DNA of 64,000 nt from the NCBI GenBank assembly GCA_958295525.1, contig OY282355.1:2165931-2229930 (forward strand), read 5' to 3'. This document shows, one piece after another, positions 59,177 to 62,136 of this stretch. Origin of the DNA: an uncultured Dehalococcoidia bacterium. GTDB taxonomy: Bacteria > Chloroflexota > Dehalococcoidia > Lucifugimonadales > Australimonadaceae. The notes under the pieces are model-generated. The model was given only the letters and a program-made list of their open reading frames with translations, was not told the origin of the DNA and searched no databases. The translations under genes and the position numbers were made by a program. The stretch's first letter is position 1, and each line of letters opens with the position of its first letter.

Positions 59177-59645
59177 GAATTTCCGTCCGCCCGCAACTTT
59201 CGCACAGAACGGCGCGGAGGTCTAGGCGTTTGGCGCGCAAAGCGCCGCGCATTGCGCTTGCCGCGAGGCGACGCCCGCCCCCTCCGCGCCGTCGCCCGCT
59301 GCTTCGGCGCCCGCGACAGATAACCCGCCGTTCGCCCCCGCCGCGCCGCCATCCCGCCCCCATCTCCGTCGTTCCCGCGCAGGCGCGCCCCCGCCCCGCC
59401 CCGCCGCGTTGCGACATACGCCCGTTGCGCGGCGCTGCGCGCCGTCTCCACAATGTCATAGAGAAGATACAACGCCTATTCGTCATTCACTCCGCTGGGC
59501 GGCGCCCGAGCGTTCCGACCCGGAACTCGACGGCTTTCGCAAATTATGACAGCGCCTCGTTGCAAACCTGATTCCATTGCGCTAATCTTATGACAAGATA
59601 GAGTCGCAGACGCGACGAAGACGGCTTTGGGAAGGAGGCGATGCA
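59177..59645. other. 469-base gap, mostly non-coding
   Basis: No gene is supported. The left part is C/G-rich (59220-59460) and has only low-complexity frames. A TTCCCGCGCAGGCG half repeat is at about 59373. The right part turns AT-richer and contains a candidate promoter at 59560-59588 and a GAAGGAGG ribosome site for the prohead protease. This composition step may mark one edge of an inserted element. Confidence 0.6.
59560..59588 (+). promoter_or_regulatory. candidate promoter of capsid island
   Basis: TTGCAA (59560-59565) and TAATCT (59583-59588) are 17 bases apart. It is the only AT-rich stretch in the gap and lies about 55 bases before the prohead protease start. Each hexamer is only a partial match. 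Confidence 0.35.
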
Positions 59646-60338
59646 ATGATGACGACGGCGGAGCGGGAGGCGCAAGCGGCGAATGACCGCGAGCGGTGGG
59701 AGCGCGAGCGGCTGCTGGAGTCGCTGGAGGCGTACCGGCGCGGGCTGGCGGACGCGCCGATGGTGCAGAAGTTCTCAGTGAGCCGCGGGGCGTCTCCCAA
59801 CGAAGACCGCCCGCTGACGGTGGTCGCGTCGGAGGAGTCGGAGGACCGGCTGGGCGACGTCGTGCGGGCGAACGGCTGGGACTTGCGCGCCTACCGGCGC
59901 AACCCGGTGTTCCTGTGGGCGCACGACTACACGCGGACGCCTATCGGCCGCAGTTCGTGGGTGGCCGTTGAAGAGCGGCGCTTGGTGGCCACGCTGGAGT
60001 TCGCGCCGACGGCGTTCGCCCGGGAAGTGGAGACGCTGTACCGGCGGCGCTTCCTGCGGGCGGTGAGCGTGGGCTTCCGCGCCAAGGCGTTCTCGTTCCG
60101 CAAGGGCAAGGACGGGACGGCGCAAGGCATCGAGTACAAGGAGCAGGAGTTGCTGGAATTGAGCGCGGTGCCGGTGCCGGCGAATCCGCACGCGCTTGCG
60201 AAGGCGTTGGACGGCGAGCTGAGCGCGCCGAGGCTCCGGCCGCTGTTCACGTTCGATATGCCGCCCGCTCGCGTGGAGCCGGAGGACGCGCAGCGAGTGA
60301 TGAGCGAATTGCGGCGCCTGCGCGGAATGGTGGCGTAA
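59646..60338 (+). CDS. HK97-type prohead protease
   Basis: A 230-residue phage maturation protease of the U35 family. The catalytic set is visible: His93 in FLWAHDYTRTPIG, Ser141 in RAVSVGFRAKAF and Glu171 in LLELSAVPVPANP. It trims capsid subunits inside a closing shell. GAAGGAGG precedes the ATG. It is the first of three genes; terminase, portal and tail genes are absent on both sides, and base composition matches the host. Confidence 0.93.
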   Translation: MMTTAEREAQAANDRERWERERLLESLEAYRRGLADAPMVQKFSVSRGASPNEDRPLTVVASEESEDRLGDVVRANGWDLRAYRRNPVFLWAHDYTRTPIGRSSWVAVEERRLVATLEFAPTAFAREVETLYRRRFLRAVSVGFRAKAFSFRKGKDGTAQGIEYKEQELLELSAVPVPANPHALAKALDGELSAPRLRPLFTFDMPPARVEPEDAQRVMSELRRLRGMVA

Positions 60339-60355
60339 GCGGCGCCGCCCGCAGC

Positions 60356-60381
60356 GGGAGTCCGCTGGGCGGCGGACTCCC
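60356..60381 (+). terminator. perfect hairpin after prohead protease
   Basis: A 10-bp perfect stem GGGAGTCCGC / GCGGACTCCC with a TGGGCG loop. A second weaker hairpin follows (GCGGGCGGGAACCCGC). No T tract, so it may limit read-through or stabilise RNA between the protease and the capsid genes. Confidence 0.45.
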
Positions 60382-60448
60382 ACGCGGGCGGGAACCCGCC
60401 GATGAACGAAATAACCCGGCGCGAGAGCCGGAAAAAGGAGGAGACGGT

Positions 60449-60697
60449 ATGAAGATCGTGCGGTTGGTTCGGAAGGCGGTGCAGGCGGCGCGGCTGGTGG
60501 ACGGCCTGTGCAAGGTCGCGCCGGAGGCCGGCGAGGCGCTGGAGAGCGGCGCGCGCCTGATGCAGGAGGCCGTCAGGTCGGCCCCGAACGGCCTGACGCA
60601 GGGGGAGCGCGCCGCGCTCGCGGAGGCGGCCCGCCGGTTCGGGGAGGAGTTGGCCCAGGCCGTCGAGGCCGCCCCGGTCGCCGGAGACGGGAAGTAG
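60449..60697 (+). CDS. small helical protein of the capsid island
   Basis: An 82-residue protein (MKIVRLVRKAVQAARLVDGL) predicted to be all helix, amphipathic, with two long helices and a loop at LTQGERAA. No family recognised. AAAGGAGGAGA precedes the ATG. Its place between protease and capsid is that of a scaffold, decoration or cargo protein in head modules; each is possible. Confidence 0.6.
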   Translation: MKIVRLVRKAVQAARLVDGLCKVAPEAGEALESGARLMQEAVRSAPNGLTQGERAALAEAARRFGEELAQAVEAAPVAGDGK

Positions 60698-60749
60698 ACG
60701 GCAGGAAGACGAACGGAGACAGGAAGAATTGCCCGAAGGAGGGACGGCG

Positions 60750-62078
60750 ATGGCGACGATGGACGAGATGCAGCGGGAGATCGTGGAGACCCAGGAGTTC
60801 GTGCGGGAGCGGCTCGGCCCCGTCACGAAGGAGTTGACGCTGTTGCGCGAGGAGCAGCAGCGGCTGGCCGGGGAGGTGCGCCGCGCCCTGGAGCGGGAGC
60901 GCGAGACGCGGCGCGAAGAGGTGCTGCGGAAGGGCGGCGCCGGCCGGCTGCGCGCCCGCGGCGGCAAGTTGGACGGCTTCGACCTGCTCGACCTCGCCGT
61001 GATGCGGAGCCTGCTCGCGGCGCAGCAGGCGCGCCCGCAAGACTACGACCCGCGCGCGCTCCGCGCCTGGGAAGAGAGCGTGGCGAAGGCGATGGACTCC
61101 GTCACCGCCGGAGCCGGCGACGAACTCGTGCCCCAGGAGGAGGCGCGCCAGTTGTGGGCGGACGTGAACGCGGAGACCGCCGTCGCCTCCCTCTTCGAGA
61201 CGGTGACGATGCCGACCAACCCGTTCGACGTGCCCCTGCAGTTGGGCGACGTCAACTGGTATCCCGGCGCGGCGAACACCGCCCCGGCGAGCACGGACCT
61301 CAAGACGGCCAAGCAGACCCTGACCGCCTACGAACTCGTCGGAATGGTGCCCTGGGCCTACGAACTCGACGAGGACGCCGTGATCGCAATGATGACGGAG
61401 GTCCGGAGCACGCTGATCCGCAACGCCGCCCAGGTGCTGGACGACGTGCTGATCAACGCCGACGCCTCGACCACCGGCAACGTCAACTACGACGGCGGCA
61501 CGCTCGCCGCGTCGACGGAAGGGTCGGCGCACTACTTGGTCGGATTCGACGGGCTCGTGCATCAGCCGCTGGTGGACAACACGGCGATGGCGAACAACTT
61601 CAACGCGGCGCCCTCGGCGGATATGTTCAACAAGTTGCGGCGGATGATGGGCAAGTACGGCCTGCGCCCGTCGGAACTCGCGTTCATCACCGACGTGGCC
61701 ACCTACATCGGGCTGCAGACGCTGGACGCCTTTCAGACGCTGGACAAGTTGGGGCCGCGCGCGACGCTGCTGACCGGCCAGTTGGGGGCGGTCGAGGGCG
61801 TGCCCGTGATCGTGTCGGAGCAGTTGCAGACGGCGGACGCGGACGGCAAAGTGACGTCGGGCGGCAACTCGGCGCCCGCAGGGCGGCTGCTCCTGGTCAA
61901 CCGGACGCAGTGGCGCAAGGGCTTCAAGCGCGAGTTGCTCATCGAAACCGACCGCGACGTTCGCAAGCGGCAGAACGTGATGGTCGTCAGCATGCGGGTC
62001 GCGTTCGCCGAGCGCACCGGCTCGCGCAGCGCGGCGAAGCACACCGCGCTGCACTACAACGTCAAGAGCCCGGCGTAG
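60750..62078 (+). CDS. HK97-fold major capsid protein
   Basis: A 442-residue capsid protein. Residues 1-75 form a helical Glu/Arg-rich delta (scaffold) domain. The shell domain begins near 80 and contains TNPFDVPLQLGDVNWYPGAANT, LTAYELVGMVPWAYEL, DVLINADAST, LRPSELAFITDVATY, VEGVPVIVSEQL and the late RQNVMVVSMRVAFAERTG. GAAGGAGGG precedes the ATG at 60750. Followed by a terminator. No other head or tail gene is present. Confidence 0.93.
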   Translation: MATMDEMQREIVETQEFVRERLGPVTKELTLLREEQQRLAGEVRRALERERETRREEVLRKGGAGRLRARGGKLDGFDLLDLAVMRSLLAAQQARPQDYDPRALRAWEESVAKAMDSVTAGAGDELVPQEEARQLWADVNAETAVASLFETVTMPTNPFDVPLQLGDVNWYPGAANTAPASTDLKTAKQTLTAYELVGMVPWAYELDEDAVIAMMTEVRSTLIRNAAQVLDDVLINADASTTGNVNYDGGTLAASTEGSAHYLVGFDGLVHQPLVDNTAMANNFNAAPSADMFNKLRRMMGKYGLRPSELAFITDVATYIGLQTLDAFQTLDKLGPRATLLTGQLGAVEGVPVIVSEQLQTADADGKVTSGGNSAPAGRLLLVNRTQWRKGFKRELLIETDRDVRKRQNVMVVSMRVAFAERTGSRSAAKHTALHYNVKSPA

Positions 62079-62106
62079 CGCGCCGGCTCCGCGCAGCCGG
62101 ACGGGG

Positions 62107-62136
62107 GGGAGGGCGCGGATGCGCCCTCCCCTCTTT
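62107..62136 (+). terminator. terminator after capsid gene
   Basis: Perfect 10-bp stem GGGAGGGCGC / GCGCCCTCCC with a GGAT loop, followed by CTCTTT. It begins 29 bases after the capsid stop and closes the island. Confidence 0.65.

Follow-up and report, generated by a model that had tools for sequence, protein, structure and literature searches.

The window, a 64-kb stretch of the genome of a SAR202 bacterium of the Dehalococcoidia (genome G000, C1:2165931-2229930; one contig, C1, of 2,512,416 bases, 96.5% complete), contains a trio of capsid genes on its forward strand. The first gene (59646..60338) encodes a 230-aa HK97-type prohead protease that matches Pfam PF04586 (Peptidase_S78, E 1e-9) and, in profile searches, phrog_617 (7e-25) and phrog_80. 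Its open reading frame and family were as a preliminary description of the window had given them, and the His93/Ser141/Glu171 triad, reported there as intact, is identical in all 18 aligned homologs. The protease is followed by an 82-aa helical protein (60449..60697) and by the 442-aa major capsid protein (MCP; 60750..62078, with its start ATG at 60750), both of which were also confirmed as open reading frames. The 82-aa protein has no family match in PHROGs or Pfam and is specific to the genus. It lies between protease and MCP in six of six genomes of the genus, at 66-73% identity to the window copy, but was not found between these two genes in the sister genus g2, so its constant presence applies to the genus and not to g2. 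Judged only by its position, it may be an assembly or scaffold partner.

MCP matches TIGR01554 (major_cap_HK97, 2e-16), Pfam PF05065 (Phage_capsid, 4e-9), and phrog_10, as well as profiles of solved phage capsids (PDB 8ho3, 8zvi, 5tjt), and its N-terminal region, approximately residues 1-115, is helical and resembles a delta domain. As judged by these similarities, MCP is of the HK97/T5 type. The HK97 fold with a delta domain that had been proposed for it rests on the profile matches, including those to solved capsids, and draws no support from an AlphaFold model built on an alignment of 13 sequences (pLDDT 39).

Each gene of the trio is preceded by a strong Shine-Dalgarno sequence (AAGGAGG, AAGGAGGAG, and GAAGGAGG, respectively), in agreement with the ribosome sites claimed earlier. 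The candidate promoter found no support, as a consensus scan returned zero sigma-70-type promoters. The proposed terminator fared somewhat better: RNA folding places a GC-rich hairpin directly after MCP, on the same strand (~62103..62134), with a strong stem but a weak T run. This hairpin may mark the end of the transcript, but a consensus scan of the forward strand did not call it and found no terminator of the usual kind. The host-like composition noted previously is roughly right, as the GC content of the trio is 0.70 and that of the window 0.69; the GC3 of MCP is 0.955, and host genes average 0.879 (SD 0.037). The 64-kb window contains no tRNA and no other match to terminase large subunit (TerL), portal, connector, or tail queries. 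Just past its end lies a second MCP copy that lacks residues 162-409 (C1:2230812-2231210; L004:8816-9211), part of a 3.2-kb tandem duplication that also includes the PMT_2 glycosyltransferase following the trio.

The trio had been described as standing without any other phage gene. This is true of the window but not of the genome, in which a single portal gene and eight TerL genes were found, along with further head genes. The portal (C1:462262-463437; PF04860, E 1e-65) stands alone among host genes. A second locus among host genes (~C1:134227-135800) encodes a cement-like protein, a head-tail connector matching the adaptor family phrog_442, and a 95-aa membrane protein. The cement-like protein (153 aa) has a predicted beta jelly-roll fold with weak resemblance to phage cement proteins (7dou, TM 0.49/0.58); the 95-aa protein has a predicted coiled coil and a hydrophobic C-terminus, and matches nothing in PHROGs or Pfam. 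A candidate for the small terminase subunit (TerS; C1:474792-475214) matches phrog_2538 and phrog_4044 weakly (E 3e-4) and is 35% identical to a TerS-like gene upstream of TerL-portal in another genome, G036. The TerL genes, identified with a homolog as query, lie among host genes at 136, 361, 715, 850, 1004, 1281, 1785, and 2276 kb of C1; a search with PF03354 was negative because that is the wrong family for these TerL proteins. Thus, the host chromosome carries structural and packaging genes of caudovirus origin, namely portal, protease, MCP, connector, TerL, and the weaker TerS candidate. No contiguous phage module is present in G000, and the portal, capsid, connector, and tail loci that we examined are embedded in host sequence, with no integrase or replication module beside the structural genes. 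Nor did we identify a lysis or regulatory gene. G000 therefore does not show the contiguous genome, integrase, and full complement of modules of an active prophage.

The presence of portal and TerL in the same chromosome ruled out an isolated compartment as our first choice. HK97-type shells require little beyond capsid and protease, and the trio does stand alone locally in this genus; both points speak for an encapsulin-like protein shell built from the trio alone. Like an encapsulin, MCP is an HK97-type shell protein encoded by a bacterium. Encapsulins, however, pair a shell with a cargo gene and have no packaging machinery, whereas MCP is accompanied by a maturation protease, portal, connector, and terminase, and we saw no cargo protein. 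The trio's neighbors, proBA/UDG/ThpR on one side and methylase/HAD/ComF on the other, include no conserved cargo-like enzyme. Because portal, connector, and TerL also co-occur and co-diverge with MCP, as described below, and because cement, a TerS candidate, and catalytically complete TerL are encoded in the same chromosome, we regard the stand-alone compartment suggested by the preliminary description as most improbable.

The position of these loci is conserved across the genus. In G001-G005 the gene order is proB-proA-(2 genes)-UDG-ThpR-[protease-82aa-MCP]-methylase-HAD-ComF, with one extra small gene call in G005; G000 retains HAD-ComF on the right, after the glycosyltransferase, and is rearranged on the left. 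All six genomes keep portal, MCP, connector, and TerL, and in all six the portal adjoins the same nucleotidyltransferase. The connector locus is bordered by M16-peptidase/SerS/LysS/GreA in G002, G004, and G005; in G001 and G003 the contig ends at the gene and the other flank is shared, and in G000 the locus is rearranged. In sister genus g2, the same proB-proA...UDG stretch is followed by HTH-TerL, portal, and protease (G006), and the cluster continues with MCP, cement, and connector (G012 and G015), ending with a 99-100-aa protein before host cofE. The g2 TerL carries a fused N-terminal helix-turn-helix, repressor-like domain (L041:111-1763). One cluster, TerL-portal-protease-MCP-cement-connector, thus occupies in g2 the proBA/UDG locus that holds the trio in our genus. 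This orthology shows that an ancestral cluster was split and that the trio is what remained at the original site, and the conserved sites indicate that the split occurred in the ancestor of the genus, after which the pieces stayed put. The refuting observation named in the preliminary description, structural genes beside the trio in relatives, is literally made in g2, but since selection on all parts continues, we read the g2 cluster as ancestral and not as a sign of decay. A sister-genus genome, G014, carries a remnant (L340:6279-9129) with a truncated TerL, a split lectin-domain gene, and an intact connector, but no MCP or portal; apart from this remnant, a different contig of the genome (L344) encodes a podovirus-like cluster.

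Selection on the head genes resembles that on host genes. Median pairwise Nei-Gojobori dN/dS across the six genomes of the genus was 0.085 for portal, 0.147 for protease, 0.15 for MCP, and 0.24 for the 82-aa protein; it was 0.126 for TerL copies (6 of the 7 similar copies), and host comparator genes ranged from 0.082 to 0.24. An apparent frameshift in the G002 MCP, which coincides with a poly-G tract and a local repeat, was treated as unreliable, and the N terminus of this MCP was left out of the calculation. Across 59 genomes, MCP and portal occurred together in 17, singly in 2 and 3, and not at all in 37 (Fisher 6e-10). MCP, portal, connector, and protease yield protein distances that are correlated among themselves (r 0.93-0.98) and with those of the host protein FtsY (0.92-0.99); individual values were 0.978 for MCP-portal, 0.952 for MCP-FtsY, and 0.988 for connector-FtsY (Mantel p 1e-4), and MCP-FtsY remained at 0.894 with one member of the genus. 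Synteny, dN/dS of 0.085-0.24, and the correlation with FtsY together indicate the vertical inheritance and purifying selection expected of a gene transfer agent (GTA).

These data also bear on whether an old prophage was broken up and its remnants are slowly decaying, one of the origins considered in the preliminary description. Signs of decay do exist: TerL is truncated and genes are split in G014, which lacks MCP, G000 has the internally deleted second MCP copy, and 7 of the 66 SAR202 MCP loci away from contig edges are not intact. The head set, however, shows neither the relaxed selection nor the broken frames that a decaying prophage should display. Its dN/dS is host-like, its sites are orthologous, its catalytic residues are intact, and its separate loci are co-retained across genera and families. 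We therefore consider decay highly improbable. The domestication and maintenance inferred earlier are borne out by the orthologous position, the low dN/dS, and an intact MCP at the remaining 59 of those 66 loci.

We found relatives of MCP at 73 loci in GTDB, all titled Chloroflexi, Dehalococcoidia, or SAR202. Among 41 well-flanked loci (6.5 kb or more of sequence to either side), MCP is always next to the protease and a connector is near in 36, and 33 have neither TerL nor portal within 6.5-8 kb. In G044, protease and MCP are fused as one 687-aa open frame (L045:9699-11762), and in G020 two tandem chimeric open reading frames, each joining a connector start to an MCP C-terminus, precede the full connector (L051:10510-11455). 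In three complete or near-complete genomes (G025, G047, and G054), head, TerL/portal, and tail genes are split into distinct loci, each surrounded by host genes. The head locus in these genomes reads protease-MCP-connector-tail terminator; the portal makes up a second locus, joined by TerL in G047 and G054; and the tail locus encodes a tail tube, a chaperone-like protein, a ~95-aa protein, a 660-aa tail protein, and a ~70-aa hydrophobic protein. Such a dispersed tail locus occurs in five or six sister families, every one MCP-positive. The PF10145 profile found no tape measure, our genus included. In the family of our genus, f1, the profiles used detected no tail tube or 660-aa protein, a search that might overlook a tail that is short or has diverged.

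One reading of this difference is that the head set was domesticated and packages DNA but is tail-less in this genus, and serves a use other than transfer, such as DNA export on lysis, sequestration, or phage interference. All head parts are present, tail profiles are negative across f1, the intact g2 cluster also ends at the connector and the 99-100-aa protein, and a free circular relative of 14.8 kb, described below, likewise combines head genes with no recognized tail. Against this, the connector, a part that normally joins a tail, is under selection, and tail genes may be too divergent or belong to other families; PADLOC returned no defense-family match. On balance we think a tail-less use of this kind unlikely.

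Seven of the eight TerL copies in G000 share ~90% nucleotide identity over ~1.7-2 kb and group tightly in a single clade; their flanks are unrelated. The copies retain Walker A, Walker B (EA), and three nuclease aspartates, which are conserved throughout the TerL tree. For the 850-kb copy, the search alignment showed an in-frame stop, but the main open frame there still spans 559 aa. The copies are bordered by REP-like palindromes (GTCATTCCCGCG..GCGGGAATC), whose density is 1.47 per kb in the 1.5 kb around TerL compared to 0.30-0.47 elsewhere; such palindromes also occur in frame within the TerL C-terminal linker. TerL is multi-copy in parallel in G002, G004, G005, G018, and G025, with separate clades in genus members and in G025. 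The repeated amplification of intact TerL beside a single-copy capsid is unusual and testable. One TerL gene occurs per 130-500 kb in G000. TerL may move together with the palindromes or be copied by recombination; that many copies are kept because packaging starts at every site is speculation.

SAR202 head genes also have phage-like relatives in IMG/VR, which branch among the chromosomal clades. Two such contigs, L213 and L203, share with the chromosomal set a homologous TerL or TerS, portal, protease, MCP, cement, and connector but are contiguous. L213 carries an unbroken TerL-to-tape-measure module with a full siphovirus-like set, including a 633-aa tape measure and complete tail. L203 (3300044762_000024) encodes TerS, TerL, portal, protease, MCP, cement, connector, and a recombinase-like gene, with no recognized tail gene; its starting sequence is repeated at 14.79 kb, and it is probably a circular, 14.8-kb phage-like element. 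Given the branching of these relatives among chromosomal clades, domestication may have happened more than once, or phages may have drawn their genes from a shared pool. The best MCP matches among 50,697 phage records are 25-27% identical over ~65% of the protein, compared to 45-82% for chromosomal SAR202 copies, although HK97/T5-type phage capsids (TIGR01554; PDB 5tjt, 8ho3, 8zvi) share with MCP the capsid profile, the N-terminal helical, delta-like domain, and an adjacent S78 protease.

Another possibility is a satellite-helper relationship, in which mobile TerL units or related phages make use of a capsid supply fixed in the host and head genes have been captured repeatedly from phages of SAR202. 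The seven ~90% identical TerL copies with unrelated flanks and palindromic borders would fit this arrangement, as would the independent expansions of TerL in G025 and in other members of the genus and the existence of L213 and L203. The head genes, however, are single copy and co-diverge with FtsY, and we saw no transposase, integrase, or target-site duplication at the TerL copies, making this arrangement very unlikely.

We instead conclude that the trio is probably one of several dispersed loci encoding a domesticated, vertically inherited, phage-derived, GTA-like DNA-packaging particle of SAR202. In such a particle, MCP would build a procapsid on the portal via its delta domain, with the 82-aa protein as a possible helper; the protease would then cleave off the delta domain and itself, TerS and TerL would pump chromosomal DNA into the head, and cement and connector would seal it. 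In sister families, the separate tail locus (tail tube, tail-assembly-chaperone-like protein, and 660-aa tail protein) would yield a tailed particle. Release from the cell and delivery of the packaged DNA would have to follow. Several findings weigh against this reading: the negative tail searches in the genus, the amino-acid composition of MCP discussed below, the failure to identify a lysis or regulatory gene, the phage relatives branching among the chromosomal clades, the broken MCP copies in some genomes, and the remnants in one sister genus. A bolder version, that SAR202 has its own split-genome GTA lineage in which one capsid, inherited vertically and possibly tail-less, is fed by amplified TerL genes that act as mobile or distributed packaging-start units, strikes us as quite unlikely.

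The closest known parallel is RcGTA of Rhodobacterales (Rhodogtaviriformidae), whose genes in R. capsulatus are spread over five loci (PMC9662315). Both systems have caudovirus-derived head genes distributed over several host loci and vertically inherited, and in both the examined loci are free of integrase and replication genes. They differ in that the SAR202 genus has capsid, portal, connector, and terminase on separate loci, multi-copy TerL, and no tail that we could find. As RcGTA is also split, the dispersed SAR202 set is a variation on a known type of GTA and not a wholly new type. RcGTA proteins are reportedly biased toward energetically cheap, low-carbon amino acids; we did not see this bias in MCP, where side-chain carbons averaged 2.757 in chromosomal copies and 2.72 in viral ones, a comparison confounded by GC. 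GTA-like packaging outside Alphaproteobacteria also has precedents in FpGTA of Faecalibacterium and PBSX of Bacillus, which are encoded as operons or prophage-like clusters and for which packaging has been observed (PMC12946183); the SAR202 genes, in contrast, are scattered.

SAR202 bacteria, most of them uncultured, occur widely in deep-sea waters and in sponges. The literature we searched, which comprised open-licence articles, describes no GTA in SAR202 or in Chloroflexota. If our reading is correct, it would represent a distinct case of GTA domestication, phylogenetically remote from Alphaproteobacteria, and, judging from that literature, the first GTA proposed in Chloroflexota. Scattering this extreme, with head, portal, connector, and terminase all apart, would be missed by cluster-based searches. 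For SAR202 bacteria themselves, such a particle would provide a concrete route for gene exchange.
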